47,160 nucleotides of DNA from a virus, in the IMG/VR virus record IMGVR_UViG_3300020411_001166, positions 1 to 47,160 of that record; one strand, given 5' to 3'. Position 1 is the stretch's first letter. The number at the start of each line of letters is the position of its first letter. Shown here piece by piece: positions 1 through 45,413 of the stretch. The translations under genes and the position numbers were made by a program. The notes under the pieces were generated by a model that saw only the letters and a program-made list of their open reading frames with translations, was not told the origin of the DNA and made no database searches.

Positions 1-3000
1 TAATAGTTCTAAACCTTCTTTTTGTAATTTTAAGTTTATTTTTCTTATGTCTTGAGAGTGTAATACCATTAATTGATTTGCTTTTATTTTTGCATCATTT
101 ATATTTTTAATAGAAGTATCTATGTATCTTACTGTGTTCTGCGCCCCATCTGTGGGCATAGCGATTTCCGCTTTAACCCTATCGCCTATTACAATAACTT
201 TTGTTGCTCTATCAAACATACTTGTATTTCCACTAACGCTCATTAGCCTATTATTAGATTTATAACTAATTTCATATCGTCTAAGTCCATATGAATCTTC
301 TAAATTTCTGAATTTTATTTGTTTATTTTTAATTTGATAATCTAATTGTTTTTTACTTGCTAAATAATTTATTGCATTTAATGATTCTACATCACTAAAG
401 TTTGCTAGTGAAACCATAGTCTTTTTATCTCTTGTAGTTATTTCATCATATTGTAATGGAGAATAATGCATTCCTCCACCAATTGTTATTGTAAATGGAC
501 TTGAAGTAGATTTAGCAGTTATTTTTCCAATTAAATATCCTGATTGATTATATATTACATCATTTATTTCTATATTAGTTGGAGTATTCAATAATGTAAT
601 TACATTACTACTAACACTATCTACAACTAACCCTGTATATTGTTTTAGGCTTTGTTCTATATCTACATCTAAATTAGAATCTTTAGCAATAGTTTCTATT
701 TCATTTTCTACCACACTTCCAATACTAAATGTAGTTCCTAAATAACAATGTGTTGGTTCTGTTTTTAATGCAGTTGGTATTGTTACTGCAAACGTTTTTC
801 CAAAAGAAACACAACCATTACCTGTTAATGTTCCATCATATTCAAATTTTAATTGAGGCGCAGATGTAGAAGTTTCATTGGTTAATGTTACTGTTAATGA
901 TTTTCTTTGTGAATTTATACCATCAGTAATATAACAATCTATTTCTTCTCCATTGCTTACAGGTAATATTGAAGCCGCATCAGATATTGTTCTTCTTTCT
1001 ATATAATTAGTGCTTAAAGCCGAATCATTTTCATCTATATTTAATAACATATACATTGAATAAAGACCTTCATTTTCTAGTTGCTTAGTTCTAGTAGTTT
1101 CACCCGTTAGTAGATTTTCTGGTAATATTTTATATTCTAATCCTGAATCGTGCATTGTGTTTATCTCTATATAATCTGGAGTATTATCAAAAGTAGTATC
1201 TGAAATACGCATTAACCTAAAATGACTTCCTTGAGTTGCAGTATCAATATCTGTATCAAATTTTAATTTATGAATTTTATGTGTTCCTGATGAATTTATA
1301 GTATGAGATATTATTTTTCCTATATATTTAGGAATACCTTTTGAGTTATAACTAGAAATACTTGCTTCTAAGGTTGGTAAATATTGTGCTGAACCGCTTG
1401 AACCACTCTCTATTCTATTAGATACAACATAATACCCTTCTAAGTTAGGAACGAAATTTAACCAATGGTGTTCAGAAGTAGAATCCATTGTAAATGATAT
1501 ATCATTATTAGCAGAAATACTTAAATCTCCTGAAGTATATTCATCTGATTCTTTCATATTAAATTGCGGTTTAATCATCATTTGCGCCGTAAACAATTCT
1601 CCATATTCACTATAACCACCTTGATTTTGACCATGATAAGTTCCCGCACCTGTATTAGATGTAACATCTGTTTTATTTACAAACGGATATGATTTAGTTT
1701 TAATTCCTAAAAATGCTTGTTTAACATCATTTACTGTTGTAGTATTGCTTCTTACCATTATATTTGCGGCGTGTTGGTTTATGTTACCAATTCCTGAACC
1801 TGCGTTTAAGAACCCTGTATAATATGTACTAAAAGAAGTTCCTTGATTAGTATTTAATGGTGAACTTACTAATTTAAGATTTATACCATCTTCATTATCA
1901 TTACTAGTTCCTTTTATGCTTCTTTTTAAATTTCTAAATAAACCAACACAAGTATTGTATATATTTCCCCCATTAGGTCTAGCAACTTTATACGCCACAT
2001 TATCTGAATTTACTATATTAAATCCACACATCGCAGAAATAACTTTAGAATAATGATAATAAGTATTTGTTGCATGGATATCAGTAGAAGCATGGAATAT
2101 AGAATTTCTTAAGTTTATAGCGTTTGCTAAAAATACAGTTGTTCCGCTTGATACTGTATTACCTGAATATGCTGATATATTAAATCTATTATTTACACTA
2201 TCCCAACTCAAAAGTGTAACATATTTACCACCAACATATATTGTATCACCTACTGCAAAATTAGTTTGGTTTCCTGATATATCTATTACAGTATCGCCAT
2301 TATTTAATGTTGCACCCAAAGTATCAGTTTTAGTATAACTGCTGGTTAATGCTGTTGATGTTCCCGAAAACGGCTTAACTTCGGAAACAATAGGTAAGAA
2401 AACATTAGGAGGGTAAAATATAGAACCACTATTAGAAGTGGGTTTTAATAAATTATAATTAAAATAATCCTTTTCTATATTAGGTCTTGCCAAATATATT
2501 TGAGTCATATTTATAGTTGATTTATTTTTTAATTCATTTAAATCATCACCGTCTGGGTTAAAAATATTATATGTAATAAGGTATGCATCATCTCCATCTT
2601 TTCTATATTTTACATAACTTCCAATATCTAATTCTGGTATCTCATATCTGTCTTTCAACGCTTCAAAATCAACAGAATTAAAGTGCCAATCAAAGGTTGC
2701 TTCGACTAATCTAATTATCCCCCACCTTCTAATTAAGGTAGGATTACTAATTGTTGAAGAAGAAATTTCGCTTAATTCATAGTTAGAATCTCTTTTAACA
2801 ACTGCTTTTGTTTTACCAGACCAACTGTGTGAAATATCTGAACCTTCTGTTCCATTTGATTCAAACATTAACCCAAAGTTATCTAAAGAATTTGTATTAC
2901 TACTAAATCCTAAACTATTGTGGCGCAAGAAAGAATCTGGTAATAAATCTCCTGTAGCATATAAATAGAACGGTCTTGCTCTATAATCATTATTTAATAA

Positions 3001-6000
3001 TTGATTTAAGTCATCTTCATTTAAATCATTTGAATATGTATCTCTATCTTCTGTTAAGTTATCTTTATTTTCTGAGTCTTTCCACCAATCAGTATCTTTT
3101 ATAACATTAGTTAGAGAAACATATCCATTTCCTAAAACCTTTCCACCACTTGTATAACCTGTTATTTTATGCGGTCTATTACCTGTTCTGTATATGCTAG
3201 TAGCAGGATTTTGTCCAAAAGCATCTGCACTATCATATGGTGGAATTATGGTATTTTCTTTAAATTTTTGAAAATCAGTAAATTTATACGTTTCATCGTG
3301 CGCATATATTGTTTTAAATCTGTTTTGTAATCTGTGCATATAGCCTCCTATTGGTGCATTTGAATTAACAAAATACATACTACTATTATACAAATTATTA
3401 CCACTAGGAGCATATCTAGTATCATTAAGATTTTTATCTGTTGTTCCTAATAAAACAGGAAAATTAGGTGCAAGAGTTATTATATTAACTCCTTCTGCTA
3501 CCTTAACTGTATCTACTACATGAAGATAAAGACTTGATGATATATCTTTATTTATTTCTGTAACATAATCTTCATTTTCTTTTGCTAATTTTAATAAAAA
3601 GTTATCATTTTGGCTTGTTAAATCTGCAACAGTTCCGCCGGAAGTTATTGTTTTTTCTAATCCTTTTGGTTTGTATATATTATATCCTAAACTACCATCT
3701 TCTAAATAATTACCATCATTAGAAGTAAGTTTTAAATCAGCATATGAAAAAGAATTTGATGCATAAGTAAAATTCATACCATTATTAAACACTAATCCTT
3801 TTTCAGATGTATGGGTAAAATCTGTTGGGTATTCTGCTTCTAAACTATTTACTCCTATGGCCTTTGCACCTGCTAAATATCTAGAAGATGAATTTAATGG
3901 ATTGTAATAATAAACAGAAGAGTTATCTGCAACATCTTTAGTAAGATAGTTTCTTAAAGTTATAGCAGTGTGATTAGTTGATGTTACATAAATACTCGTA
4001 TCAACCTCTCCAATAAATTCATAATTTTCATCAAATAATAATACATATTTAACTAAAGAACCTGTTTTATTTCCATCAACTCTTAATGTTGAACCACCTT
4101 CTTTACCAAATGCGCCGTAAACAGTAAATGTATTACTTAAATCTAAAGAAGGAACAAGTGTAGAATATACTATATCATCACTAAAGTTAAGATTTTTATT
4201 TACAGTATTAGTAATTAGATTTGCTGTTTTATCTCGACCTGTTAATCTAAAACCCATCAGTCCATTTTCATTATAATTATCCAAAGTATCTACTAGACCG
4301 TTAAATACTTCTTCATGTATTGTGTAGCCACCACCATAGTAAAACATTCTATGTTTAGGAGAATCTTGATAATAACTTCTATTAGGTTCTAATATTGAAA
4401 CGTATTGTAAATTCTTATCTCCATAATCAATTAATGTTTCATGGTTAGTAAATGCATTCATGCTAATTCTCATGTTATGCATTTTTGAATTATCTTTATC
4501 AATTGTATGTTCTTCTAATGTTAATCTATTATTCTGTGAAGTTATTACTTCTGTATCAGACGAAAACCCTAAATTAAATTTATTATTACTGTAATGACTA
4601 ATATAAATATCCGCATTTGTTACTGTTGGCGGAGTAGTATCGCTAGTCCAAGTATTTTCTGATTTTTTCTTTTTGTGGCTAACTTGAAATGATTGCTTAG
4701 TTTCATTAGTTTTTGAAGTAATAGAAGATACTCTATAATAATACTCTCCTATTAGAACAATTGAATCTGCGCCCAATATAGCAGAATAATCATAATCTGA
4801 TTTGTTATCTGTATTAACACTTGTATTATTATTAAATTCTAACGTATTGGAATTAGTTGTTACAGTGTTAGGTAATTTTCTAAATTTAATTGAATCTGAA
4901 AATATGCCATTTCTAATAACCATTTTAGAATCTAATTTATATTTAAGGTGTTGAATACCAGCATTATCAACACTAACTATTTCAGCATATTTAGACATTT
5001 TATTTCTAGGACTATTTACTGAAGTTTCTAAAGCCATTGGTATTTTGTCGTTCTTCAATGATGCGTTTACAAATCTTAAATATTTAGATGGGCCATTTAA
5101 TGTTCCATCTAAACTTGTTGTAGTTGTAGTGCTATCCGTTGAACTTCTTTTCATATTAGGAAATGCTTTGTGCCAAAATATAGGATTAAAAGTTCCTCCA
5201 CTATCAGTTTCATCAGTTGTTAAATTATTATCTACTAATAAAACATCTAATTTACTCCTTCCTAAATTTTGAATAGTATTATCATATTTTCTTTCTGTTT
5301 TAAATACTACACTTTGAATAGTAGTTCCTACTTTAACTGCTATATCTGTAGTATCTGTTCCACCACCGCTATTTAATGTTCCACTAGGCCTATAATAATC
5401 TAACGCTAACTTACCTGTTACACCATTAGTGCTTTTAGATTCTATATTACCTAAATAAGTTCCATCAGATTTAATTAAAGACATACCTTCGTTTAATTTA
5501 ATATAATCGGCGTTGGCTAACTGAAAGTATTTACTACCCGTTAAACTTCCTTGTTCATATTGAGATAATTCACCAACAGTATCGGTTAGATTAAAAGTAA
5601 ATGTTCCCCAATGTCTTGTTATTGTAATAGTATATTTTTCATTATAATTTAGTTGGTCATCTTCTTCTAATCTATCATTATAGAAATAAAATGTTGGTCT
5701 ATTCACGATACATATTTTATCGAATTTATCTGTAGAAGCAGAAGTATCTCCACGAAGACCATAACTAACTGCAACAACATCTGTTTCTGTTTTTAATGGC
5801 CCTTTGTAGATTTCAAATTCAGTTCCTTTCGGAATATTTCCTTTATATTTAGGAGTAAATTCTACACCATCACCAAAACTATCAAAAGAAGATAATCTAG
5901 TTATTTTAGCAAAATGAGGCCTTACTGATGTGGTATCATCTTCTTGAATATTAGGATTTAATATAATAAAATAATCCCTATTTTTAATGTCTAAACCTAT

Positions 6001-6441
6001 ATTACTATTGGGTGTATCTGAGGAAGCATGATATGTAGCAGGTTTATTTGTAACACCATGAGTTAATTGTGAATCATAAATTTTTACTTTATATGATGGA
6101 GTGTTTTCTTTATTAGTTCCAACATCACTTATATTACTTGAAGTTGGAAATAATCTATTTTGAATGTGAGATGTTGGTTTTTGATTAGTAGGCATATCTT
6201 GTGCATGAGGCCCATTTCTTATTTCAAAAAATAACATTGATACAACGGGTGCAGAATTAGAACCAACAGAAGGTAAATTATTTGTTTCATCTTCTAATCC
6301 ATTTGTCTTAAGAAGTGGATTTACTGATACATTTTTATATGCTTTAGATTTAGCATTAGTGCTAGATTTAGTAGTATAAGTTTCAGTAAATGTAGTTTCA
6401 TCTTCTCCAGCATTAAGAGGAAAAGTCATTTTACCGCTCAT
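1..6441 (-). CDS. Giant tail hub / baseplate-fibre protein, 3' end outside window
   Basis: The frame is open from an ATG at 6441 to the window edge (2147 codons, no stop), so the C-terminus is missing. The start follows GGTGATTGA and directly abuts the stop of the gene before it. Composition is rich in Ser, Thr, Asn and Tyr with beta-strand-like patterns, as in tail proteins. Around residue 700 it reads GLMGFRLTGRDKTANL, and near the visible end FDRATKVIVIGDRVKA followed by a helical stretch starting NDAKIKANQLM. Both segments resemble the central hub (gp27/gpD-like) of tailed phages. Position after tape measure and two baseplate-type genes supports a tail-tip role. I infer a fusion of hub and fibre-like domains; the domain limits cannot be drawn by eye. 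Confidence 0.75.
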   Translation of the reverse strand, partial: MSGKMTFPLNAGEDETTFTETYTTKSSTNAKSKAYKNVSVNPLLKTNGLEDETNNLPSVGSNSAPVVSMLFFEIRNGPHAQDMPTNQKPTSHIQNRLFPTSSNISDVGTNKENTPSYKVKIYDSQLTHGVTNKPATYHASSDTPNSNIGLDIKNRDYFIILNPNIQEDDTTSVRPHFAKITRLSSFDSFGDGVEFTPKYKGNIPKGTEFEIYKGPLKTETDVVAVSYGLRGDTSASTDKFDKICIVNRPTFYFYNDRLEEDDQLNYNEKYTITITRHWGTFTFNLTDTVGELSQYEQGSLTGSKYFQLANADYIKLNEGMSLIKSDGTYLGNIESKSTNGVTGKLALDYYRPSGTLNSGGGTDTTDIAVKVGTTIQSVVFKTERKYDNTIQNLGRSKLDVLLVDNNLTTDETDSGGTFNPIFWHKAFPNMKRSSTDSTTTTTSLDGTLNGPSKYLRFVNASLKNDKIPMALETSVNSPRNKMSKYAEIVSVDNAGIQHLKYKLDSKMVIRNGIFSDSIKFRKLPNTVTTNSNTLEFNNNTSVNTDNKSDYDYSAILGADSIVLIGEYYYRVSSITSKTNETKQSFQVSHKKKKSENTWTSDTTPPTVTNADIYISHYSNNKFNLGFSSDTEVITSQNNRLTLEEHTIDKDNSKMHNMRISMNAFTNHETLIDYGDKNLQYVSILEPNRSYYQDSPKHRMFYYGGGYTIHEEVFNGLVDTLDNYNENGLMGFRLTGRDKTANLITNTVNKNLNFSDDIVYSTLVPSLDLSNTFTVYGAFGKEGGSTLRVDGNKTGSLVKYVLLFDENYEFIGEVDTSIYVTSTNHTAITLRNYLTKDVADNSSVYYYNPLNSSSRYLAGAKAIGVNSLEAEYPTDFTHTSEKGLVFNNGMNFTYASNSFSYADLKLTSNDGNYLEDGSLGYNIYKPKGLEKTITSGGTVADLTSQNDNFLLKLAKENEDYVTEINKDISSSLYLHVVDTVKVAEGVNIITLAPNFPVLLGTTDKNLNDTRYAPSGNNLYNSSMYFVNSNAPIGGYMHRLQNRFKTIYAHDETYKFTDFQKFKENTIIPPYDSADAFGQNPATSIYRTGNRPHKITGYTSGGKVLGNGYVSLTNVIKDTDWWKDSENKDNLTEDRDTYSNDLNEDDLNQLLNNDYRARPFYLYATGDLLPDSFLRHNSLGFSSNTNSLDNFGLMFESNGTEGSDISHSWSGKTKAVVKRDSNYELSEISSSTISNPTLIRRWGIIRLVEATFDWHFNSVDFEALKDRYEIPELDIGSYVKYRKDGDDAYLITYNIFNPDGDDLNELKNKSTINMTQIYLARPNIEKDYFNYNLLKPTSNSGSIFYPPNVFLPIVSEVKPFSGTSTALTSSYTKTDTLGATLNNGDTVIDISGNQTNFAVGDTIYVGGKYVTLLSWDSVNNRFNISAYSGNTVSSGTTVFLANAINLRNSIFHASTDIHATNTYYHYSKVISAMCGFNIVNSDNVAYKVARPNGGNIYNTCVGLFRNLKRSIKGTSNDNEDGINLKLVSSPLNTNQGTSFSTYYTGFLNAGSGIGNINQHAANIMVRSNTTTVNDVKQAFLGIKTKSYPFVNKTDVTSNTGAGTYHGQNQGGYSEYGELFTAQMMIKPQFNMKESDEYTSGDLSISANNDISFTMDSTSEHHWLNFVPNLEGYYVVSNRIESGSSGSAQYLPTLEASISSYNSKGIPKYIGKIISHTINSSGTHKIHKLKFDTDIDTATQGSHFRLMRISDTTFDNTPDYIEINTMHDSGLEYKILPENLLTGETTRTKQLENEGLYSMYMLLNIDENDSALSTNYIERRTISDAASILPVSNGEEIDCYITDGINSQRKSLTVTLTNETSTSAPQLKFEYDGTLTGNGCVSFGKTFAVTIPTALKTEPTHCYLGTTFSIGSVVENEIETIAKDSNLDVDIEQSLKQYTGLVVDSVSSNVITLLNTPTNIEINDVIYNQSGYLIGKITAKSTSSPFTITIGGGMHYSPLQYDEITTRDKKTMVSLANFSDVESLNAINYLASKKQLDYQIKNKQIKFRNLEDSYGLRRYEISYKSNNRLMSVSGNTSMFDRATKVIVIGDRVKAEIAMPTDGAQNTVRYIDTSIKNINDAKIKANQLMVLHSQDIRKINLKLQKEGLELL

Positions 6442-7419
6442 TCAATCACCAAACCTATAATAAAACATAATACTACTATAACTAGGAGTTAATGTAACTA
6501 ATGTTGGAGATGCTTTACTTCCTTTGTATAATGCAATTTCATATAATTCTCCCATAAACTGAGTAGTTTTATTTGTTCCATCTTTACCAATAAAACAATC
6601 ACTTGCATTAAATGAAAATGAAGCGGGTGCATCATATCTTCCGATTTCTTGGTTATTTAACATTATTTGTATAGAACCACCATAATGATATACACAAGTT
6701 ATTTTATATATTTGTTCTACATAAAATGCTTCTTTTGGTTGTGAAACATATATTTTTGCAGTATGATTAGATGCATCAGCAACAGTAATTGTTGTTGAAG
6801 ATGCAATCGTTACAGTGCCTAAACTAACACCATTCGCATTAAATATTTCAGAACCCGTTGCAAGTTTTGAAACATTGCTAGAAGTTAATGTTATTGTATT
6901 TCCACTAACTGTTGAATCAGCCTGTAATAATGTTAAAGACGTGGACATATCATTATAATAACCATTTTCATCATAATATCCATATAATGTATTAACAGGT
7001 CTTATTAATGTTGGAGTAGTAATATCCGAATCTAATCCATCTATACCTACGCCTATTCTGTATTCTGCGGGTTGATTCTTGTTATGAACGGTAGTATTTT
7101 CTAAATATAATTGAAATTTAGTATTATAAAATAACATCATTTTATGTGAATATCTATTTGTACTAAAATAACTTCCGCTTTGTGTTGAATTTGTTGTTCC
7201 TATTGGTGCTGTTTTTGTAGAAGTTAATACTTCATCCGTAGTATTACCATTTACATCATATGGTGTTATTAATGCTTCAATAACAAAACCTTCGGATAAA
7301 TTCCAAAGATTTCCTTTTGATGTTGAGATGTTGCTATCTGCATATGGTATTTTTAAATAACCATCAGACATTACAGGGAAAACTAATGCTTTAGAATTTC
7401 CTAAATATACATTAGCCAT
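6442..7419 (-). CDS. Tail protein with lectin-like (LamG/concanavalin A-like) fold
   Basis: 325 aa, started by ATG after AGGTGAGTTA. The region around residues 38-55 (NLWNLSEGFVIEALITPYD) and the C-terminal ELYEIALYKG followed by a YYRFGD end have the beta-sandwich rhythm of laminin-G/concanavalin A-like domains common in virion adsorption proteins. A Thr/Ser-rich insertion sits near residues 170-220. It lies between baseplate-type genes and the giant tail protein, so host-surface glycan binding is plausible. The fold call is by pattern, not by search. Confidence 0.55.
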   Translation of the reverse strand: MANVYLGNSKALVFPVMSDGYLKIPYADSNISTSKGNLWNLSEGFVIEALITPYDVNGNTTDEVLTSTKTAPIGTTNSTQSGSYFSTNRYSHKMMLFYNTKFQLYLENTTVHNKNQPAEYRIGVGIDGLDSDITTPTLIRPVNTLYGYYDENGYYNDMSTSLTLLQADSTVSGNTITLTSSNVSKLATGSEIFNANGVSLGTVTIASSTTITVADASNHTAKIYVSQPKEAFYVEQIYKITCVYHYGGSIQIMLNNQEIGRYDAPASFSFNASDCFIGKDGTNKTTQFMGELYEIALYKGSKASPTLVTLTPSYSSIMFYYRFGD

Positions 7420-12612: not shown

Positions 12613-13722
12613 CTAATCAATAAAATGTATTAGTTGTTTTTTACCGTCAATGATTGCTTTTGCTTCTTGCATTAATATATCATGTTTAGTCTTTAAGTCA
12701 ATATTTGCACCTGTTTCATTAATTAATATTGTATTATCATCATGTACTAATATTTCAGCGGCAACCATTTTTGTGGCGGCTTCGTGAATACTTGCAGGAA
12801 CTCTCTTTGAACCACGAATATAAGTTACTTTAACTGAATGAGGCATTAAATATGGATAATCTTGTCTAAAGAATATTTTTCCTTCTCCGTCTAAAGTCCA
12901 AAAATCTTCCCTTCTACCATAGTTTTCTTTATCATCAAAAGAAGAAGAAGATGTTGTTCCATGTGTAGCAGTTATCGTACAAATAGTACCTGCATCTTTA
13001 GGAAGTAAAGATGATATTTTAACAGAAGTTCCATTATGGCTAGGAGAAGCATAAAAGAAATCAGATATATTTCTTGTTACTCCACCACCATTAGGTGCAT
13101 CTGTTATCTCTTTAATTGATGTTTCTCCTGTAAATCTTGCAGTATCGGCAGGATATTTTTCATTTATAGCATCACAAATTTGTTTAACTGTTGTTTCTTG
13201 ACCAAACAAATCATAAAAACCATTTGCTTGTCCTTTTGTTAATACGAATCTATAACCTGTATCTGCATCACTACCTACTCCTAAAGTTATAGTAAATGTT
13301 CCATTAACTGCATCTGCAGGGGGTGTATATTCAACCATTGCTGAAGCAAGGTCTTCATAAGCATCACCTTTATAAACTTCTAATCTAATTATTTTTTGTA
13401 TTTTAGTACTATTTAATTGAATGAAACCAACATAGTCTTTCCAATAAGTTAGGGGATAAGATTGTAATTGCCAAGCATCAAAGTTATGAGTTTCTTTTTC
13501 TATGATTTCAGGCCTGTAACTTAATTTAATACTTTCATCAATTCTTCCTTCGACCCTTTTTATTATTTTACCAACAGTAGCAATACTTGGAGTAGATGAA
13601 TTTGTAAAAGCCCCTACTTGTAATAAATCAGAAACTTCTGTATGAGATGTATAATAACCTATACCTGATGTATAATTTGCTAATGCACCTGCTACATAAT
13701 CACTGTCTGATTTAATCGTCAT
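12613..13722 (-). CDS. Head-tail connector / adaptor protein with inserted beta domain
   Basis: 369 aa, ATG after AAGTGATATA. The N-terminal part (TVGKIIKRVEGRIDESIKLS, about residues 50-70) and a C-terminal helix (HEAATKMVAAEILVHDDN) look like the split helical bundle of gp6/gp15-like adaptors. Between them is a long Gly/Thr/Asp-rich beta region of roughly 200 residues with the pattern of an inserted domain, so the protein is about three times the usual adaptor length. Position after head genes and before tail genes fits. Confidence 0.5.
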   Translation of the reverse strand: MTIKSDSDYVAGALANYTSGIGYYTSHTEVSDLLQVGAFTNSSTPSIATVGKIIKRVEGRIDESIKLSYRPEIIEKETHNFDAWQLQSYPLTYWKDYVGFIQLNSTKIQKIIRLEVYKGDAYEDLASAMVEYTPPADAVNGTFTITLGVGSDADTGYRFVLTKGQANGFYDLFGQETTVKQICDAINEKYPADTARFTGETSIKEITDAPNGGGVTRNISDFFYASPSHNGTSVKISSLLPKDAGTICTITATHGTTSSSSFDDKENYGRREDFWTLDGEGKIFFRQDYPYLMPHSVKVTYIRGSKRVPASIHEAATKMVAAEILVHDDNTILINETGANIDLKTKHDILMQEAKAIIDGKKQLIHFID

Positions 13723-15519: not shown

Positions 15520-16239
15520 TTAAGCCAACCAAGCGGCCCATGCCGCACCTTTTTGAATTAAATTACCAATACCTAAACCTGAACCGGGCGGTGTATAAGT
15601 TGGTTGTCCTGTATTTGGGTCTATCCAATAAGGATTACCCATTGTATCATAACCATTAGGTGCAACCGGATAACCCGATGGATTGTTAAATGCTTGTTGT
15701 TGTTGCATCATTACGTTATTTGCTTGAACAATTGGATTACCACCACTTATCTGTGAAGGATTTAATCCACCTGCATTTACTTGACCTTGAGGCATTTGAC
15801 CTTGTGGTAATTGTGGTTGTTGTGCGCCTACTTGATTTGTTTGGAATCCTTGTGATTCTAAATATTGTTGTTTAGCCATTTTTCTTTGCATAATAACTTC
15901 TGTATTTAATGCTGATGCTAATAAATTTTGTAAATCTAATTGAATATTTGCCGCAGTTATTTGTTCAAATTCTCTTATTGAATCTGGATGAACTTCTAAA
16001 TCACCCGTTGGATTAGAATTGAATTTTAATTGAACTAATTGTCTACTTACTACTCTTTCAACAACATCTTCTAATAATTGTTCAAATGCAGTTAAAAACA
16101 TTTCACCGTGATAAGTAAAAAATTCTTCTACATGATTTTCTTGTAATGTTAAAAGATTATTCATTACCTTAAAGTCGGCTTGACCCTGTGCAGTTATTTG
16201 TTGCGCTAAGTTTTTATTGCTTGTTCCTAATAAACCCAT
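15520..16239 (-). CDS. Gln/Pro-rich virion-type protein, 239 aa
   Basis: I choose the ATG at 16239, spaced from AAGGTGAATAAA, over a GTG nine bases upstream. Residues 1-135 are helical with many Glu, Gln and Leu. Residues about 140-225 are low-complexity Gln, Asn, Gly and Pro, and the last 20 residues are hydrophobic (GIGNLIQKGAAWAAWLA). The layout, helical body, flexible linker, hydrophobic end, would suit membrane or capsid anchoring. It follows the zinc protein and GTPase genes. Confidence 0.5.
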   Translation of the reverse strand: MGLLGTSNKNLAQQITAQGQADFKVMNNLLTLQENHVEEFFTYHGEMFLTAFEQLLEDVVERVVSRQLVQLKFNSNPTGDLEVHPDSIREFEQITAANIQLDLQNLLASALNTEVIMQRKMAKQQYLESQGFQTNQVGAQQPQLPQGQMPQGQVNAGGLNPSQISGGNPIVQANNVMMQQQQAFNNPSGYPVAPNGYDTMGNPYWIDPNTGQPTYTPPGSGLGIGNLIQKGAAWAAWLA

Positions 16240-16240
16240 T

Positions 16241-16921
16241 TTATTCACCTTCTTTTTCTAATATTGGTTCTTCAATAGTTTTAATTTTAGTTTCTTCGGT
16301 TAAAAGTTGTAAAATTCTTTTATTCAAAGTTTGACTCTCTATTGTTAGTCTAAATAATTCATCTTCTTTTGTTTCATTAATCATGGTTGGGGGTTTAATG
16401 CCCCACCCCAATGTCGCTAATGACTCAATATCGGATTGCCTTAATGAAGTTAGCGGCCCAGATTGTAACATTTTAGGCACTTTGGGTTTAGGAATATATG
16501 AACTAAATTCTAAACCGTGTTCATCAGCAATTATTTGTTGCTCTAACATTTCGTATTGGCGATGTAATGCTGAATGTTTATCACAATATGTTCCTCTCAT
16601 CGGATAACCCTTTCTAACTTTATGTAAAGGTATTGTTGGCCTCATTGGGTCAGAAGCATCCCATACTTTATGTGTTCCACAAACAACACATCTATCTTTA
16701 GTATTAAATTTATATCCATATTTTATACCTAAAAATTTCTTTCTTTCAGGCCAAAGAATTTTAATCATTTCTTTAACCTGTTTTTTAGGCTTACTACTAA
16801 TGTAATCATGTGTAATAACAGGGCCAGCCGCTCTTGCAAATTTAATTGGTGGTAAAAAAGGATTTGCTACAGTAGCATTTGTAGCACCAATTAATGAAGG
16901 AGGGTTGTATTGAATAGTCAT
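16241..16921 (-). CDS. Zinc-binding protein, 226 aa
   Basis: Start ATG overlaps the stop of the preceding micro-ORF (TAATG) and follows GGAGGT. Cys78 and Cys81 (CVVC) with Cys113 and His116 (CDKH) form a plausible treble-clef or ribbon zinc site, spaced by a Pro/Arg-rich loop. The C-terminal third is helical and acidic. I recognise no named family. It is wedged between the GTPase and the Gln-rich protein and probably works with them. Confidence 0.55.
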   Translation of the reverse strand: MTIQYNPPSLIGATNATVANPFLPPIKFARAAGPVITHDYISSKPKKQVKEMIKILWPERKKFLGIKYGYKFNTKDRCVVCGTHKVWDASDPMRPTIPLHKVRKGYPMRGTYCDKHSALHRQYEMLEQQIIADEHGLEFSSYIPKPKVPKMLQSGPLTSLRQSDIESLATLGWGIKPPTMINETKEDELFRLTIESQTLNKRILQLLTEETKIKTIEEPILEKEGE

Positions 16922-16992: not shown

Positions 16993-17661
16993 TTAATAAT
17001 CGTTAATCATCGTTGTTATTCCTCTATAAACCATTTCTGAATCAGACTTTGCACTTACTATATATTTAAAACATGGTATTCCTCTATCATTTAATTTAGT
17101 CATACCGTCTTTAAATGCATCAAATATAGGGTGTTTTTGTATATCATCATAAGGGTATCTATCTTTCCATAAATCAAATTTATTTGCCCAAATTCCTACT
17201 GCTACGGGATAATCATGTTTTTTCTTTTTTTGTCTTTTATTAATAGAATCCCAATAAGGAGAACATATAGCATCAACTAAAAAAGTCCAACATAATTGTT
17301 GCTCAATATCATAGTGTTTATCCATATGTCTATCATCAATCATAAAAATAATATATTTAGTTTTTCTACTTTTCATGTCTTGTAGCCATTCCCCCCAATA
17401 TAATGTTTCACCCCCAATATCTGATGTTTTGATTGTATGTTGGTCGCCGTCTATTTTAATAGTTTTTCTTGTTGCTCTATTTCTTCCTACAGTTCTATCT
17501 TTAATATCTGGTACTTCGCCTCTTGTTCTTAATTGATGATGCATTGTTGTTTTACCTACTTGAGTTGCCCCATATACTCCAAATGGTATTGCATGAACTT
17601 TTTTCCAAAATAAACTAACTTGCTCAGCCATCAATATAACAAAGCCCGTCATTAAAGACAT
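16993..17661 (-). CDS. Ras/Arf-like small GTPase
   Basis: 222 aa with the full set of G motifs: P-loop GATQVGKT (residues 31-38), a switch I Thr region after TVGRNRAT, DIGG (81-84) for G3, NKFD (160-163) for guanine specificity and SAK (203-205) for G5. Order and spacing match small GTPases; an insert of about 30 residues with a KRQKKKK patch lies before G4. The G3 glutamine position is Glu85 after DIGG. The N-terminus is hydrophobic (GFVILMAEQVSLFWKK) and could bind membrane. It is directly preceded in the operon by two membrane protein genes. A signalling or membrane-remodelling role is inference. Confidence 0.8.
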   Translation of the reverse strand: MSLMTGFVILMAEQVSLFWKKVHAIPFGVYGATQVGKTTMHHQLRTRGEVPDIKDRTVGRNRATRKTIKIDGDQHTIKTSDIGGETLYWGEWLQDMKSRKTKYIIFMIDDRHMDKHYDIEQQLCWTFLVDAICSPYWDSINKRQKKKKHDYPVAVGIWANKFDLWKDRYPYDDIQKHPIFDAFKDGMTKLNDRGIPCFKYIVSAKSDSEMVYRGITTMINDY

Positions 17662-17664
17662 AAA

Positions 17665-17892
17665 CTAACCCAACAAATGATTCCATAAATTAACCGTTCC
17701 ATTCCATGCACCCGCGTATAAGTTATATCCAAATAAACTTATACCGTGTCCTATAAAAAAGGACACAACACTACAAACTGTAGCCCAAAAATAAAATCTT
17801 GCTCTTAAAAACCAAATATCTGCTGAATGTGCTCTTTGCAAATCATATGCTAAAGTAGATTCATCAAAACCAAAGGTTAAAGCATCTAACAT
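17665..17892 (-). CDS. Small single-span membrane protein
   Basis: 75 aa. One strongly hydrophobic aromatic segment near residues 33-57 (FYFWATVCSVVSFFIGHGIS) is preceded by Arg-rich HSADIWFLRARF, suggesting a cytoplasmic N-terminus. ATG after GGAGTAGATTAA. It sits three bases before the GTPase start region, and I infer a functional pair. Could be a virion membrane-interaction protein. Confidence 0.6.
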   Translation of the reverse strand: MLDALTFGFDESTLAYDLQRAHSADIWFLRARFYFWATVCSVVSFFIGHGISLFGYNLYAGAWNGTVNLWNHLLG

Positions 17893-17897: not shown

Positions 17898-18302
17898 CTA
17901 CTCCAATTTCGCTAAGAAAGAAGGAGAAACCCCCCTTGCTTCTTCTTGTGGTTGTTGGATATAAGATGGAGGTGGTTGGACATAATTTGTTTGATTATTC
18001 TGATTAAGAGATGTAAGAATTTTTTCTCTTTGTTGTTCATCTCTTTGTTTTTTTGCCCAATATCCGGCTATTCTTCTATCTAAAAGAATCATCTCTATTC
18101 TGTCGTTTAAGGCTAAATCAAATACCGCCTTCATAACTAAAATACCACCAATCGTTAGTAAACCAAATACTAACGCATCAGCGTAATCATTAAAACCAAT
18201 CATAAATCCATATTTAGAATAGAAATATACATTCGTTCCACTTATCGCACCTACAAATAAAATAGTCATTACTAATTTTGTGTCTTTTTCTAATGCTGGC
18301 AT
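17898..18302 (-). CDS. Two-span membrane protein
   Basis: 134 aa from the ATG at 18302, which has GAGGGAT at proper distance; a TTG twelve bases upstream is less likely. Two hydrophobic segments (about residues 10-31 and 44-65) are separated by an aromatic loop. The rest is a charged helix (WAKKQRDEQQREK) and a Pro/Gln-rich tail. The hairpin-with-tail layout would place both ends on the same side. Next to another membrane protein and the GTPase. Confidence 0.6.
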   Translation of the reverse strand: MPALEKDTKLVMTILFVGAISGTNVYFYSKYGFMIGFNDYADALVFGLLTIGGILVMKAVFDLALNDRIEMILLDRRIAGYWAKKQRDEQQREKILTSLNQNNQTNYVQPPPSYIQQPQEEARGVSPSFLAKLE

Positions 18303-18310
18303 AAAATCCC

Positions 18311-18607
18311 TCAATAATATTCAACTGAATATGCAATTGTTCCTGTTACTACAACATAAACTCCTTCTGCGGCAATTACCCCATGCATATCAAATTCAAA
18401 ATTATTAGCACCATTTTGTGATGTTCCGCCAACAAACATTCTAGTAATTTCTTTTTTACCAGATGTTGTTGCGGTTGATGAATCATAAACTTTAATATCG
18501 CCTGTTGTCGAACTGTTCCCCATAACTCGCACAGACGCTATCCTTGTTCTACCACTTGAAACTACTTTTGATGCAGTTAATACTCCACTTGAATTACAAC
18601 TAACCAT
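18311..18607 (-). CDS. Small beta-rich virion protein
   Basis: 98 aa from the ATG at 18607 (GAGGT six bases upstream; an alternative ATG six bases earlier is too close to it). Alternating strands rich in Ser, Thr, Gly and Val, with FEFDMHGVIAAEGVYVVVTG near the end. This pattern is frequent in small surface or decoration proteins of marine tailed phages. It lies two genes after the capsid and decoration genes. Confidence 0.5.
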   Translation of the reverse strand: MVSCNSSGVLTASKVVSSGRTRIASVRVMGNSSTTGDIKVYDSSTATTSGKKEITRMFVGGTSQNGANNFEFDMHGVIAAEGVYVVVTGTIAYSVEYY

Positions 18608-18620
18608 TTGCATACCTCAG

Positions 18621-19432: not shown

Positions 19433-20773
19433 TCATGCGCTCTTTAGGTTAGTAATCTTACCTTGCCCCTTAAAGAAGGAACAACCTGTTTCAGCAATAG
19501 TTCTATACATTGCTTGATTACCAAGTGTACCTACACCAAATGGGTTTCCGTTATCAATACCGTCTTCAAAGTATTGTGTTGGTTTCATAACACTCATCCA
19601 AAGATGGTCTGTATCTAATACCAGAATATCGCTTAATGTATTAGTTGCACCCGAATGGGAAGTTTTAGGCATATCTTTACATGGAATAATTGGAATATCA
19701 AAGTATGTTGCAACTCTAAATCCAACTTCTGCACCCTTTACACCACGAACTCCATTATGTGTAGGAATTACTTCTTTTCTATCCATAAATCTTTCTTGGG
19801 CTTGAAGTAAATCACCAATATGCTGAATAGTATCATATCCGGTCAAAAGAACCTTTGGACTTCCACCATTCTCTCTAATTCTTCGTAGCATATCATTTAA
19901 GATAGTTAGTGTTAATACACGACAACCTGCCGCAGTATAAGCACTTCCATAATCCACTTCTGCATCTAAGAAAGATGCGCCAGAATCACGGCTATTATCG
20001 CCAAATAATTGTGTTATTGTATCTGGCAACGAACCGCTTGTTGTTGCTAAAAGATTACTGCTATCACGCATTGCAATCAATTCAGCATATGAAGAAACAA
20101 TCTTCATTAGTGAAGTATAGTTTCTGCCTAAGTTAGTTAGAGTATTTGACTCATCATACTTTTCAAGAGGCATTAGTAGCATCTTATTTTGAACTTCGGC
20201 GTGATGTTTACCCATGTCTTCACGAATTAAAGACCTTAAATCACCTACGCCATCGTCAATCTTAGCCATCTCAAGTGCTAATTCTGAAAACTCAAACAAA
20301 TGAGCAACAGTCTTAGGACTTGTGAATAAGGTAGTATATTCTGGCGTAATAGCCGGAATATCATTACCTGTTCCTAATGATGCGTTTTCAGCAACACCAC
20401 CGATTAAATCGGCTCTTGGAGTTGCAGTTCCACGTGTTGTACCTACGCCCGAACCACCAACATCAAATGTAGAACCACTACCACCTTCAGCCCTAGCCTT
20501 TAGAACTCTCCAACCGCTAGAAGCATAAGGTCGCTTTGCTAAAACTGCTAAAGCATTTGCTTCTTGATTTAGCATAGACCATACTTTTTGTCCATAAATC
20601 TTATTATAGAGAGCAGATAAACCTGTTGCACCAGACATAACCGATGTTGAAGCATCGTGAGCGGAATGTAATCCACCTACAACACCTGCACTCTTTAATA
20701 CCGCATTTCCAGCACCTGCCTTAACACCGTAAGTTGATGCCTCTAAATCTTTCATTGTTTTAATATAACCCAT
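19433..20773 (-). CDS. Major capsid protein (HK97 fold)
   Basis: 446 aa from the ATG at 20773, which has GAGGT seven bases upstream; an upstream ATG at 20794 would lie inside the scaffold gene and lacks a site. The order protease/scaffold, this gene, decoration is diagnostic. Features fitting the fold: a Gly/Ala-rich N-arm, a long helix region with ALYNKIYGQKVWSMLNQEAN near residues 55-75, an E-loop-like Gly/Ser-rich stretch (GGSGSTFDVGGSGVG), and a C-terminal QYFEDGIDNGNPFGVGTLG. No long N-terminal delta domain is present, consistent with a separate scaffold. Confidence 0.85.
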   Translation of the reverse strand: MGYIKTMKDLEASTYGVKAGAGNAVLKSAGVVGGLHSAHDASTSVMSGATGLSALYNKIYGQKVWSMLNQEANALAVLAKRPYASSGWRVLKARAEGGSGSTFDVGGSGVGTTRGTATPRADLIGGVAENASLGTGNDIPAITPEYTTLFTSPKTVAHLFEFSELALEMAKIDDGVGDLRSLIREDMGKHHAEVQNKMLLMPLEKYDESNTLTNLGRNYTSLMKIVSSYAELIAMRDSSNLLATTSGSLPDTITQLFGDNSRDSGASFLDAEVDYGSAYTAAGCRVLTLTILNDMLRRIRENGGSPKVLLTGYDTIQHIGDLLQAQERFMDRKEVIPTHNGVRGVKGAEVGFRVATYFDIPIIPCKDMPKTSHSGATNTLSDILVLDTDHLWMSVMKPTQYFEDGIDNGNPFGVGTLGNQAMYRTIAETGCSFFKGQGKITNLKSA

Positions 20774-20774
20774 T

Positions 20775-21488
20775 TTACTCAACCTCGTATTCATTAACTA
20801 TGTTGTGTAATTCGCCCCAAGATAGTTCTGATACATCTACCTCAGGTAATGCAACAGTAGCAGACTTAACAATTGTTTCTTGTTGTTCAGTCAAACTCTT
20901 TCTTAATGTAGCAAATTCTTCTCTCAAAGTATTTACTTCATCCATTGCATTATACTCATTACGCTCTACTTCAGACTTTCTAACAGATTGTTCTGTAGCA
21001 AATCTTTCAGCAAATTGTGTCTTTAGAGAATCATAAGCCATCTTCTCTAATTGTTCTGCTTTGTATGCTTCATAGGCTTTCTCCACATTTTCAACAGAAA
21101 GGTCTAATGTGTTAAATTCATCATTAGACCACTCTTTACTAATAGAAGATGGTACTTTTAATGTTCCGAATTGTCCATTCTGAACATGAGGCTTTCCACT
21201 TGAAGTAGAACCTGCGCCTCCATCTTCTACAGGGCCAGATGGCCCATCAATCATTTTTTCTTCCATATCGTAATCGGCTTTTTCGGATTCTTCATCATCC
21301 ATATCTGCCTTTTCTTCTTCATCTGTGTCCATAGAAGCATAATCGCCCATAGCAATTTCTTCCTCAGGTTCTTTACCTCCATAATCACCTTTATCCATTT
21401 CAGGGTCTTCACCCTCCTTTCGCAATTCATTAACTTGTTTCATCAAGTCATTCAGTTCTTCTAAGGCTTTTTCCAATTTTTCGGTCAT
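20775..21488 (-). CDS. Nested scaffold protein (internal start)
   Basis: Starting at Met175 of the protease polyprotein gives a 237-aa acidic coiled-coil protein ending in SELSWGELHNIV. AAGGAGG at 21503-21497 lies eight bases before this in-frame ATG. Lambda C/Nu3 is the known precedent, where the internal product is the abundant scaffold. The nested product is inferred from sequence only. Confidence 0.65.
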   Translation of the reverse strand: MTEKLEKALEELNDLMKQVNELRKEGEDPEMDKGDYGGKEPEEEIAMGDYASMDTDEEEKADMDDEESEKADYDMEEKMIDGPSGPVEDGGAGSTSSGKPHVQNGQFGTLKVPSSISKEWSNDEFNTLDLSVENVEKAYEAYKAEQLEKMAYDSLKTQFAERFATEQSVRKSEVERNEYNAMDEVNTLREEFATLRKSLTEQQETIVKSATVALPEVDVSELSWGELHNIVNEYEVE

Positions 21489-22010
21489 TTCCCTATCCTC
21501 CTTTAGAATATCAAATTTTGCTTCAGGATTAATCCCCTTCTCGCAAATAGTGATTTCATGGAGTTCCAATTTATTTATTTCATTATACTCGCCAAGAGTA
21601 TCATTTGTCTTTTTGACTTTTGAAAGTGCTTGTCCACCTATACTAAATGAACGCAGGTTTCCCTTTCTTATTCCTCTCGACACTTCTTTGGCCTTTTCTA
21701 TATCATCTCTCAATTTAATTACAACATAGAAGCCAACATCATCAACCTTTGTTTGATGTAAATTTCCAGATTTATCTCGATATTTTTCAATAACTTCTCC
21801 AACCTGTACATTTGAATGATTAGACATTACATTTCTATATTTCTTTTCAGACATATATTTGTTTACTGCTTCTTCTAAAGCCTTTAATGTAATTAAATCA
21901 TTTTGTTTATCAACAATCTCAATTGAAGCATATCCACCTATGACTAAATCATCAGATTTCAGAATATTAAACTCATATTCTGAGTCTGACTTTAACAGTA
22001 GGGGTTGCAT
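20775..22010 (-). CDS. Prohead protease fused to scaffold
   Basis: 411 aa. Residues 1-170 are an HK97/herpes-type prohead protease: IGGYASIEIVDKQNDLI near the start, likely catalytic His65 (SNHSN) and Ser123 (RSFSIGG), and an ELHEITICEKGI strand. Residues 175-411 are a highly acidic, coiled-coil scaffold with Asp/Glu repeats. The C-terminus SELSWGELHNIVNEYEVE closely matches the C-terminus of the 76-aa protein at 24.8 kb. An internal ATG at 21488 with a perfect ribosome binding site would give free scaffold. The protease would cleave scaffold and probably packaged proteins during maturation. Confidence 0.85.
   Translation of the reverse strand: MQPLLLKSDSEYEFNILKSDDLVIGGYASIEIVDKQNDLITLKALEEAVNKYMSEKKYRNVMSNHSNVQVGEVIEKYRDKSGNLHQTKVDDVGFYVVIKLRDDIEKAKEVSRGIRKGNLRSFSIGGQALSKVKKTNDTLGEYNEINKLELHEITICEKGINPEAKFDILKEDREMTEKLEKALEELNDLMKQVNELRKEGEDPEMDKGDYGGKEPEEEIAMGDYASMDTDEEEKADMDDEESEKADYDMEEKMIDGPSGPVEDGGAGSTSSGKPHVQNGQFGTLKVPSSISKEWSNDEFNTLDLSVENVEKAYEAYKAEQLEKMAYDSLKTQFAERFATEQSVRKSEVERNEYNAMDEVNTLREEFATLRKSLTEQQETIVKSATVALPEVDVSELSWGELHNIVNEYEVE
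21497..21503 (-). promoter_or_regulatory. Internal ribosome binding site for nested scaffold
   Basis: AAGGAGG on the RNA strand, eight bases from ATG 21488. It is stronger than most gene-start sites in this window, which fits a need for many scaffold copies per protease. Confidence 0.65.
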
Positions 22011-25012: not shown

Positions 25013-25291
25013 TCACCTTCTTCTTTCGTTCAATTCTTCATTTATTCCTTGAGTTGGATTTTCCCTAACAGTTCTCTTTAATCTATCAACTGTTTTTGGT
25101 GTAAAATTAACATATTTGGGTTCGGGCATTTTGTTGTCCTTTCTAACTACAAAATAATCACATTTACCTTTTGAGTTAATTGTTATCTCATCTAAAGTAC
25201 AACGCTTATTAGCATTATACATACAAGTAATAGCATCACAAACCGTTACTTTACAGTCTGCTTGCTTTTTCATTTCATCTTTCCAATTCAT
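25013..25291 (-). CDS. Tagged DUF1540-like cysteine protein
   Basis: 92 aa. It begins with the shared tag MNWKDEMKK and then has Cys13, Cys18, Cys23, Cys31 and Cys44 in the spacing CxxxxCxxxxC, NxxxxC, CDYF typical of DUF1540, a small presumed metal-binding domain. The remainder is a basic helix (TVDRLKRTVREN). Overlaps the preceding gene by four bases (ATGA). Function of DUF1540 is unknown; the tag suggests head packaging. Confidence 0.6.
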   Translation of the reverse strand: MNWKDEMKKQADCKVTVCDAITCMYNANKRCTLDEITINSKGKCDYFVVRKDNKMPEPKYVNFTPKTVDRLKRTVRENPTQGINEELNERRR

Positions 25292-25611
25292 TCTAAATCA
25301 CCTTTGTTTTTTGGATATATCATATCTCTCAATTCTCTATATAATTTTTCATAGTCTTTTCTTAATTTTGCTGACTTTGAAACTAATGATAAATTTTTAT
25401 CCTTTAGTTTTTGTAATTGTTTTTTATCAGATTTTTCAACATTAATTTTATCTAACTCATCTAATAAATCTGAAAGTTTAGTAAAGTCTTGGCCCATATA
25501 TTCTGATGGTTTAGAAATTTGTAATTTCTTTTTAATTCTTTTCTTTACTTTGCTATTTGTTTTCTCCATAATAGGCGAATACTCTTTTAATAATATATGT
25601 TCCCAAGTCAT
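25288..25611 (-). CDS. Tagged coiled-coil protein, 107 aa
   Basis: Begins MTWEHILLKE, a tag variant with one extra residue. The rest is Lys-rich and helical (VKKRIKKKLQIS, later KDKNLSLVSKSAKLRKDYEK). Overlaps both neighbours by four bases. No enzymatic motif; I infer a packaged internal or DNA-binding protein. Confidence 0.55.
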   Translation of the reverse strand: MTWEHILLKEYSPIMEKTNSKVKKRIKKKLQISKPSEYMGQDFTKLSDLLDELDKINVEKSDKKQLQKLKDKNLSLVSKSAKLRKDYEKLYRELRDMIYPKNKGDLE

Positions 25612-34508: not shown

Positions 34509-35195
34509 TCACTTCCAATTTTTTGGGTCTAGTTTATCTAATATTATTTCAATTATATCACTATAAAAATTAGACATTTCTAGCGTATCATTTTCATATG
34601 AATACCTTTGCGTAATGAATATTGTTCCACTTGAAGATAATATATAAAATCTACGTTGATTACTACCTGCTTTTTTAATGTATGCAAAAATACCCCTTCT
34701 GACTTCAAGCCAATCATCTTCATTTGGCGGATTGATAGATTGGTCATCAAACTTTACATACATTTCATAACCATCCATTTCTTCATTATGAATGCTGCCA
34801 AATCCAATATCACCACCAGCGTAAATATTATCTATTAAATCTAGAAATCTACAGGCTACTTTTTCTGGTAATTCCGAAAATGCATCTTTTTCAAGGTGAA
34901 CAGTATAATAACCAAATAAAGTTGCCCCTTTAAATCTATTATTATGTTTACTAATTACTGCCTTATCATTATAATAATCTTCTTCAACAGTTGTTAAACC
35001 ATGCTTATTATAAATATTTGTTATTTCAGTATCGTTGTGTATATTATAATTATCCTTTTGTGTTTTAAAATGATTATAATACTCCTCTAGTTTCTTTTTA
35101 CAGGGTTCGTCATCTTCTATATCTTTAACATCTTTGATTCTTAACTGAGTCTTAGGCTTAGTAAGTAATTTATTTTTAAGAATAGAAAACCACAT
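34509..35195 (-). CDS. Tagged tandem paralogue C, 228 aa
   Basis: Third copy of a tandem family. Shares MWFSILKNKLLTKPKTQLRI and a following acidic EPCKKKLEEY segment with the next two genes, and a KLDPKNWK end. The central part differs but keeps the pattern LPE(K/R)VAC-x-x-LD near residues 110-125. Begins with the tag MWFSILKN. Function unknown; copies suggest diversification of a packaged effector. Confidence 0.6.
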   Translation of the reverse strand: MWFSILKNKLLTKPKTQLRIKDVKDIEDDEPCKKKLEEYYNHFKTQKDNYNIHNDTEITNIYNKHGLTTVEEDYYNDKAVISKHNNRFKGATLFGYYTVHLEKDAFSELPEKVACRFLDLIDNIYAGGDIGFGSIHNEEMDGYEMYVKFDDQSINPPNEDDWLEVRRGIFAYIKKAGSNQRRFYILSSSGTIFITQRYSYENDTLEMSNFYSDIIEIILDKLDPKNWK

Positions 35196-35199
35196 TTAA

Positions 35200-35880
35200 T
35201 TACCTCCAATTTTTGGGGTCTGCCTTCTTATTAAAAATATCTTTCATTTTACGAATAAATAGTAGGCTTGCCTTTAAATTGGTTTTTCTTTTATCATTAT
35301 ATATTTTTTCGAATTTGGTAACTCTAACACTTGTATACAACTGAATATCAAAAACATATCCTTCATCACCAAAAACCTCAATATCAAACTGAATCCTTTT
35401 CGGACTACTATTATAATAAACTCCAATTTCATAAGAACCCACCTTTGTATATACTTCTGATTCTGTCTGACTATCTACCATATCTAATACTTCACAGGCT
35501 ACCCGTTCTGGTAAATCTTCCCATAAATCTGGTCTAAAATCAGTATGATAATGAATAATAAGGTTTGAAAGAATAAAATCATTATTTTCTAACATTATTC
35601 GTTTTATATAACTATTAGGGGAGTCTGAATAAAAATGATGGTATAAATCAGTATAGTCTGCTTCTTTCTTTAAAGGTTTTAACTTATATTCTTCTATAAC
35701 ATTGTTTACTTCGGGGTCTTTCATAATTTCATAATTTTTTTTCTGTTTTTGGAAAAAGTCAATATACTCCTTTAATCTTTTTTTACAAGGTTCATCATCT
35801 TCTACTGCTTTATTATCTTGAACTCTTAGTTGAGTCTTAGGCTTAATTAAAAGTTTATTTTTAATTATTGAAAACCACAT
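35200..35880 (-). CDS. Tagged tandem paralogue B, 226 aa
   Basis: Starts MWFSIIKNKLLIKPKTQLRV and ends KADPKNWR. The shared core DLPERVACEVLDMVDS is near residues 118-133. The middle differs from copies A and C in sequence but keeps a similar alternation of strands and helices. ATG after GTGATAGA-type spacing following copy A. Confidence 0.6.
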   Translation of the reverse strand: MWFSIIKNKLLIKPKTQLRVQDNKAVEDDEPCKKRLKEYIDFFQKQKKNYEIMKDPEVNNVIEEYKLKPLKKEADYTDLYHHFYSDSPNSYIKRIMLENNDFILSNLIIHYHTDFRPDLWEDLPERVACEVLDMVDSQTESEVYTKVGSYEIGVYYNSSPKRIQFDIEVFGDEGYVFDIQLYTSVRVTKFEKIYNDKRKTNLKASLLFIRKMKDIFNKKADPKNWR

Positions 35881-35884
35881 TCTA

Positions 35885-36583
35885 TCACTTCCAATTCCTA
35901 AAGTTTAATTTTCTATTTAATACTGAATGTAAAACGCGTGAATAAAAACCCGGCGCATTTTCCGAATCTGTATTATTAACTATTGAATGAACTATAGAAA
36001 CCCCAAATGATATTACTTCTAAACCAAAGTTAGTAATTCCCCTGCCTTTAGAATATATACTTACCATAAAGTGTCCACCTAAATTTCCCTCTTGAAAACG
36101 AAGGGGTAACTTTTCTATTGATATAACTACTTTATAACCATCAATAATTGGACTTGCAAAGTAGTGTTCTTTTTCTATGTTTTCTTCTAATTTATCTAAA
36201 ATCTTACAGACGGTTTTTTCTGGTAATTTTTCAAATGCTTCTTTATTAAATTTTATGGGAGAAAAGATAACTAAATGAGCCGATGAAAAGTCAATACTTT
36301 GGTCGCCAACAGATTCGCTATATTTTGTGGCTTTAACCCCTGTATGGGGTGTGGCCATTATAGGCCTATATTCGATTTTAAAATCCCATCCTTCATAAGA
36401 TTCTTTTAGTTCCTCATCATTAGTTATGTCGTAATTATTTTTTTGTCTTTCGACATAATCATAATATTCTTTTAATTTTTCTTTACACGGTTCGTTATCA
36501 TCTATCTCTTTATTATCTTGAACTCTTAATTGTGTTTTAGGCTTTACTAATAACCTATTTTTAACAATTGAAAACCAAGTCAT
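35885..36583 (-). CDS. Tagged tandem paralogue A, 232 aa
   Basis: Starts MTWFSIVKNRLLVKPKTQLR and ends LNFRNWK; core KLPEKTVCKILDKLEEN near residues 118-134. The first of three copies in transcription order. Its start overlaps the stop of a 20-aa ORF (ATGA). The conserved N-terminal 60 residues against a diverged body suggest a common delivery and docking part with variable business ends. Confidence 0.6.
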   Translation of the reverse strand: MTWFSIVKNRLLVKPKTQLRVQDNKEIDDNEPCKEKLKEYYDYVERQKNNYDITNDEELKESYEGWDFKIEYRPIMATPHTGVKATKYSESVGDQSIDFSSAHLVIFSPIKFNKEAFEKLPEKTVCKILDKLEENIEKEHYFASPIIDGYKVVISIEKLPLRFQEGNLGGHFMVSIYSKGRGITNFGLEVISFGVSIVHSIVNNTDSENAPGFYSRVLHSVLNRKLNFRNWK

Positions 36584-41444: not shown

Positions 41445-41675
41445 CTACCTATTGTCTTGTTCCCATCCTGACTCTTGATTTTGTAAGAAAGGTTCTCTTA
41501 TATCTTCTATAAATTCTAACATTGCATCCAAATTAACAAAATCCTCAAAGTATTCTTGTAAATCATTCTCATTGATGGCATTCTGTATTTCCTGAACTTG
41601 ATTATGCAAATGCTCTAGTTTCTCATACATATTCAAATCTGTATTTACAGACTTTACGATGTTTTTCCAAGTCAT
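41445..41675 (-). CDS. Tagged acidic helical protein, 76 aa
   Basis: Begins MTWKNIVKSVNTD, then acidic helices (LHNQVQEIQNAINEN) of coiled-coil character. ATG overlaps the stop of the terminase small subunit gene. The tag suggests head packaging; otherwise unknown. Confidence 0.55.
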   Translation of the reverse strand: MTWKNIVKSVNTDLNMYEKLEHLHNQVQEIQNAINENDLQEYFEDFVNLDAMLEFIEDIREPFLQNQESGWEQDNR

Positions 41676-45101: not shown

Positions 45102-45413
45102 TTATCCACCTCTTTTTAATTTTTCTTCCAAAGCGATTATTTGCTTTTGATATTCTAATGCTAACTCTTTCATTTTAGTTAATCTTTTATCGTTTTCTTC
45201 TGAACCCATCGGGCCAGCAAATTCTTCAAAATCTTGAATAGCCTGTAAATTGTTTTCTTCAATAATTACTTTCTTTACTATTCGGTTAAGTTCTTTAGAT
45301 AATTGATTAAGTTTGCTTAATGTATCTTTAAATTTAGACATTTCTTCAGGAGCATATTCTTCCGCTAACTCTCTTTCTAAGTTAGACACTTTAATTATAT
45401 CCTCCCAACTCAT
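45102..45413 (-). CDS. Tagged coiled-coil protein, 103 aa
   Basis: Begins MSWEDIIKVSN with AGGTGAGGAAGA upstream. The rest is acidic coiled coil (SKFKDTLSKLNQLSKELNRI, then ELALEYQKQIIALEEKL). No motif. Head-packaged structural helper by inference. Confidence 0.55.
   Translation of the reverse strand: MSWEDIIKVSNLERELAEEYAPEEMSKFKDTLSKLNQLSKELNRIVKKVIIEENNLQAIQDFEEFAGPMGSEENDKRLTKMKELALEYQKQIIALEEKLKRGG

Follow-up and report, generated by a model that had tools for sequence, protein, structure and literature searches.

Eukaryotic membrane traffic is characterised by small GTPase switches, and giant viruses are already known to encode small GTPases. A small GTPase driving archaeal vesicle budding was demonstrated only recently: the ArvABC operon of Haloferax encodes the Arf-like small GTPase ArvA, which has an N-terminal helix, together with ArvB and the zinc-ribbon protein ArvC, and ArvABC knockouts alter the vesicle output of the cells (PMC10927574). 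On the viral side, magrovirus capsids have been published as related to those of the Druskaviridae (PMC8651126), and in a Group A magrovirus the ligase gene is found beside the protease gene (PMC7318539).

The window, i.e., the whole 47,160-nucleotide stretch of viral DNA analysed here (IMG/VR record IMGVR_UViG_3300020411_001166), was found to contain a small GTPase gene at exactly the position given in the original prediction. The strand, which that prediction lacked, was shown to be minus, as for the surrounding structural genes, and the plus strand is rich in stop codons. The gene and its neighbors are:

12613-13722, minus strand: head-tail adaptor, homologous to HVTV-1 gp125, at the far end of the interval holding the block
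15520-16248, minus strand: the 15520 protein, 242 aa, with a predicted helical N-terminal part and a Gln/Pro-rich C-terminal part
16241-16921, minus strand: zinc-binding protein, 226 aa, with CxxC...CxxH
16993-17661, minus strand: small GTPase, 222 aa (ORF, motifs, family search, predicted structure)
17665-17892, minus strand: TM2, small membrane protein, 75 aa, with a RAHSA motif
17898-18314, minus strand: TM1, membrane protein, 138 aa, with a hydrophobic hairpin and, after it, a charged tail whose last residues are SPxFL
18311-18613, minus strand: small protein upstream of TM1, possibly a decoration protein (inferred name)
19433-20794, minus strand: HK97-fold major capsid protein (PF17236)
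20775-22010, minus strand: prohead protease (S78)

As predicted, all five G-motif regions were present and in order: G1 (31-GATQVGKT-38), a switch-I-like RTVG (56-59), G3 (81-DIGGE-85), G4 (159-ANKFD-163) and G5 (203-SAK-205), preceded by an AF2-predicted N-terminal helix (residues 3-22), hydrophobic with a moderate moment. GATQVGKT fits the P-loop pattern GxxxxGK[ST], and DIGG, NKFD and SAK fit DxxG, [NT]KxD and SA[KL]. In 181 distinct viral homologues, G31, G36, K37, T38, T39, T57, G59, D81, G83, G84, A159, N160, K161, D163, S203, A204 and K205 were 100% invariant and, because these core motif residues never vary, the motifs are not attributable to chance. Residue 85, corresponding to Ras Gln61 and Arf Gln71, was E in 139 homologues, Q in 42 and nothing else. 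The invariant T57 fits the position of the G2 threonine, in the very segment where AF2 confidence is lowest. Of eight close pairs compared, seven had dN/dS values of 0.01-0.14, and the remaining pair (0.35) had very few differences. Judged from these alignments, purifying selection on the catalytic residues is very strong, and the protein is probably competent for GTP hydrolysis.

Profile searches and the predicted fold together place the protein among the Ras-superfamily small GTPases (TRAFAC class). As a single sequence it gave weak matches to Pfam MMR_HSR1 (0.0011), Roc (0.0034) and SRPRB (0.014) and to NCBIfam small_GTP (6.5e-4), none reaching a curated cut-off; for SRPRB the score was 15.2 bits against a cut-off of 25, and Arf was not matched, so that Arf/SRbeta membership is not obtained by the Pfam cut-off. 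The small_GTP model matched all 30 relatives tested (best 2.4e-6), and most of 28-30 relatives matched SRPRB and MMR_HSR1. The Pfam matches of the relatives were likewise weak (SRPRB in 28/28, best 5.5e-5; Arf best 3.8e-5), with Ras, Roc and MMR_HSR1 scores about equal to those of Arf and SRPRB; by sequence signal the Arf/SRbeta and Ras/Roc families are inseparable here. A profile search against PDB sequences matched Ras alone (E about 0.02-0.1). The AF2 model used (59 sequences, pLDDT 76.7, pTM 0.76), which superseded a poor 28-row model (pLDDT 69), matched 1500 PDB chains at E<=1e-3, and the best 50 of these 1500 were Ras/Rab/Rap-type small GTPases or complexes holding them; Arf-family structures were also matched by the poorer model. 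Thus, by both profiles and fold, GTPases and not other P-loop proteins were the best matches. The TxG in switch I, DxGG[Q/E], ANKxD and the predicted N-terminal helix are reminiscent of Arf/SRbeta, but the viral protein differs from the Arf/Sar/SRP-receptor-beta branch in its weak scores and its SAK at G5, and it lacks a position-2 glycine that could be myristoylated. Three further matches were discarded: scattered weak PHROG matches (phrog_12424 and others), taken as chance; a RecT Pfam match (0.0065) of a single family member; and a weak tblastn match on a plasmid to a Sinorhizobium permease.

The view that small GTPases are rare in tailed viruses agreed with the searches: the protein had no tblastn match in 50,697 phage records, and yeast Arf1 and Ypt1 probes (approximate sequences) matched nothing in the same records and nothing convincing in PHROGs. 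In IMG/VR, hundreds of contigs encode the GTPase, with 142-185 relatives in the first-clade scans and 375 when the profile was led by a more distant member. When the fold was compared with a library of predicted structures of viral proteins, all of the 50 best matches came from giant viruses of eukaryotes (Nucleocytoviricota), whose Rab/Ras-like GTPases are also virus-encoded; however, their hosts are eukaryotic, identity was about 10-18% over most matches, and the fold matches give no support to a shared viral origin. A GTPase with 84% identity is also encoded by L085 (NZMJ01000101.1), from a bin labelled Maricaulis, a bacterium; in all likelihood this is a virus contig placed in the wrong bin.

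The capsid protein (PF17236) is distantly akin to those of the Druskaviridae HVTV-1/HCTV (24-26% identity), and the gene of an ATP-dependent ligase adjoins the prohead protease gene. PolB matches were mostly in two pieces and genomes were 92-99 kb (compare PMC10768690); chaperonin was found in 14 of 15 records of further relatives tested. The Magrovirales traits of a Druskaviridae-related capsid, an ATP-dependent ligase, PolB and a genome within 90-110 kb were found, and on the basis of capsid kinship, ligase position, PolB, genome size and the chaperonin of further relatives we call these viruses magrovirus-like. The Aoguangviridae exemplar carries MCM and chaperonin genes, whereas in the window's clade chaperonin was absent and MCM was not found in nine genomes. 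From the literature the host is inferred to be Poseidoniales, and the carriers probably infect abundant marine archaea.

The genes lie in one orientation throughout, in the order ligase, protease, capsid, 19068, 18621, small protein, TM1, TM2 and GTPase, then zinc protein, 15520 and, further on, adaptor (12613) and tail tube. The two adjoining membrane proteins and the zinc protein were thereby confirmed where predicted, and the head-to-connector placement holds, with the GTPase between the capsid and putative decoration genes on one side and the head-tail adaptor on the other. A search of related viral genomes, proposed earlier as a check, detected the cassette in every close relative. The order TM1-TM2-GTPase-Zn-15520 was kept wherever flanks were present (80 first-clade loci), 15520 always following the zinc gene, and in a second set of 82 loci the neighboring pairs of the block were kept in 82, 82, 80 and 78. 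When the search was started from the capsid gene, the GTPase gene not serving as bait, all 55 loci with enough sequence had the GTPase 1.4-2.0 kb downstream of the capsid gene. It was present in 24/24 near-complete records, as a single copy in 23 and as two copies in one double-length record (184.7 kb). The TM2 stop and the GTPase start are mostly 0-9 nt apart. The TM2 RAHSA, directly before the membrane segment, was invariant (180/180), and the C-x2-C...C-x2-H of the zinc protein was kept in 185-186 of 187 relatives. GTPase distances correlated with those of the protease (r = 0.93), TM1 (0.88), 15520 (0.88), TM2 (0.85), the zinc protein (0.82) and the capsid protein (0.69), and mean identity was 72% for the GTPase and 69% for the capsid protein. 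The GTPase is thus shown to be a core gene, co-inherited with the capsid, protease and adaptor genes.

This inheritance bears on two further readings. Genes for host-signalling decoys are usually accessory and patchy, whereas this GTPase occurs throughout the clade, holds a fixed place flanked by head genes and is under as much constraint as the capsid; a mimic of a host small GTPase acting in polarity, division or vesiculation and reprogramming the cell is therefore very improbable, even though the complete catalytic motifs and the Q/E at the catalytic position would suit it. A place among late structural genes of one operon, and inheritance together with the head genes, would also be expected if the GTPase and its partners were packaged, or placed at the portal vertex, and acted on the host membrane at entry. 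Two integral membrane proteins are, however, unusual for a membrane-free tailed virion, and we regard such a virion component as improbable.

In some loci of the second clade, accessory ORFs sharing an N-terminal tag were found inserted right before or after the GTPase (L409, 9060-10000; L460, 9460-9985; L430, 10632-11193; L412, 10638-11232). The source contig of L409 (184,733 bp) is of double length, encodes both the GTPase and the chaperonin twice, and looks like two virus genomes concatenated or a chimera. The tag, M-(x)-W-x-x-I-[LIV]-K (MSWEDILK, MWFNILK and similar), is common to many otherwise unrelated ORFs, in the window the following:

25288-25611, minus strand: tagged ORF
34509-35195, minus strand: tagged ORF
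35200-35880, minus strand: tagged ORF
35885-36583, minus strand: tagged ORF
41445-41675, minus strand: tagged ORF
45102-45413, minus strand: tagged ORF
45585-45824, minus strand: tagged ORF
45821-46036, minus strand: tagged ORF

A set of 7,879 distinct ORFs totalling 1.57 million residues contained W..I[LIV]K 267 times, and in 226 of these cases the motif began at residue 2-4. The 230 tagged ORFs came from the window and from magrovirus-like and sister marine loci, none from halovirus loci. By analogy with the T4 capsid-targeting sequence, virion cargo could carry the tag as a propeptide for capsid targeting or for the prohead protease. The three adjacent similar proteins at 34509-36583 (minus strand; 226-232 aa) begin with MWFSILK, MWFSIIK and MTWFSIVK and resemble tandem paralogues. 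An open-ended ORF at 1-6441 (minus strand; at least 2,147 aa), adjoining a LamG-like protein at 6442-7419, is likely a tail/fibre-type protein.

Compared with ArvABC, the viral GTPase is, like ArvA/OapA, a small single-domain protein with a (here predicted) N-terminal membrane-type helix and an operon partner of zinc-ribbon type, and both share Arf/MMR_HSR1-like profile matches (ArvA being taken from its description). In contrast to ArvABC, the viral block has two integral membrane proteins instead of ArvB and sits in a head-gene operon. For the ArvB family (DUF2073/OapB, PF09846), 11 viral records were searched without any match at E<=1, and for the ArvC family (OapC, PF09845), 12 records without one over the cut-off, the H. 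volcanii and Haloferax controls, respectively, being matched; one sub-threshold OapC match in G025 lay far from the block, and the viral zinc protein had no OapC match in Pfam. Since neither family was found in the viral genomes, the block was not filed as an ArvABC system, which remains its best functional analogue.

The analogy bears most directly on an egress module, in which the GTPase, TM1 and TM2 would act on the host membrane at a late stage of infection, deforming or opening it in a budding- or vesiculation-like manner or by timing lysis. ArvA, in an operon with ArvB and the zinc-ribbon ArvC, controls vesicle output (PMC10927574), the viral block likewise combines a GTPase and a CxxC/CxxH zinc protein with two small membrane proteins, and no recognised lysis gene was found within the window. 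However, the block is inside the head module and not beside a lysis cassette, and in the viral genomes OapB was not matched at all and OapC not above the cut-off; egress is thus possible, though on the unlikely side. Gene position alone fits an assembly factor and a late egress factor equally and does not separate them. A stronger claim, in which an Arf/ArvA-like membrane GTPase module (the GTPase, the two membrane proteins and the zinc protein) is obligatory for particle production and GTP drives a deformation of the archaeal membrane on which heads form or through which they leave, seems doubtful to us.

The head module of the Druskaviridae virus HVTV-1 contains homologues of the capsid protein, protease, portal and adaptor and keeps their order, but the GTPase was found nowhere in the HVTV-1 genome, and homologues of TM1, TM2, the zinc protein and 15520 were found neither there nor in related halovirus loci; the idea that the ancestor of the Druskaviridae head module already had the GTPase and its partners was rejected on this ground. 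A capsid scan seeded with HVTV-1 divided the loci into three states. Druskaviridae-like loci have no block, and the one-TM protein gp124 of HVTV-1 sits before the adaptor gp125. A marine sister lineage (e.g., L494 and L527) has the same ligase-capsid-adaptor order without the block, in place of which a single unrelated protein of 788-1027 aa is encoded (L494, 10462-12828; L527, 10527-13610). Magrovirus-like loci have the complete block wherever the contig extends far enough. The three states indicate that gain, loss or exchange affected the block as a whole. Because the sister lineage does without the block while having homologous capsid, ligase and adaptor, the block is not required for such heads in general.

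Our preferred reading, to which we assign a probability of roughly 0.4, is that the virus-encoded small GTPase acts as a membrane-associated switch in head morphogenesis. The N-terminal hydrophobic or amphipathic helix, the juxtamembrane RAHSA of TM2, or both, would bring the GTPase to the host membrane, where its GTP state may recruit or position a head precursor or connector; the zinc protein or the 15520 protein would be its regulator or effector, and GTP hydrolysis would time head release or completion. Invariant G motifs, the E/Q-only catalytic position, low dN/dS, fixed gene order and co-inheritance count in favor of an assembly role, as does the HVTV-1 membrane protein gp124 directly before the adaptor, whereas the sister lineage, with its homologous head genes and no block, counts against it. 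Universal in the clade, beside membrane and zinc proteins and amid the head genes, the GTPase suggests a GTP-powered switch at the host membrane for particle building or release.

No mention of a GTPase was found in the magrovirus literature searched; the primary magrovirus description lies outside it, and an earlier annotation is possible. To our knowledge, a small GTPase as a core head-operon gene of a tailed prokaryotic virus is new, and we know of no tailed virus for which GTP-driven membrane deformation has been described as a mode of head assembly or exit. An invariant head-operon GTPase in viruses that probably infect abundant marine archaea implies GTP-regulated membrane work in the making or releasing of a tailed virion. 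The block provides a defined gene set for testing this, with the sister lineage, which has the same capsid genes without the block, as a natural control.
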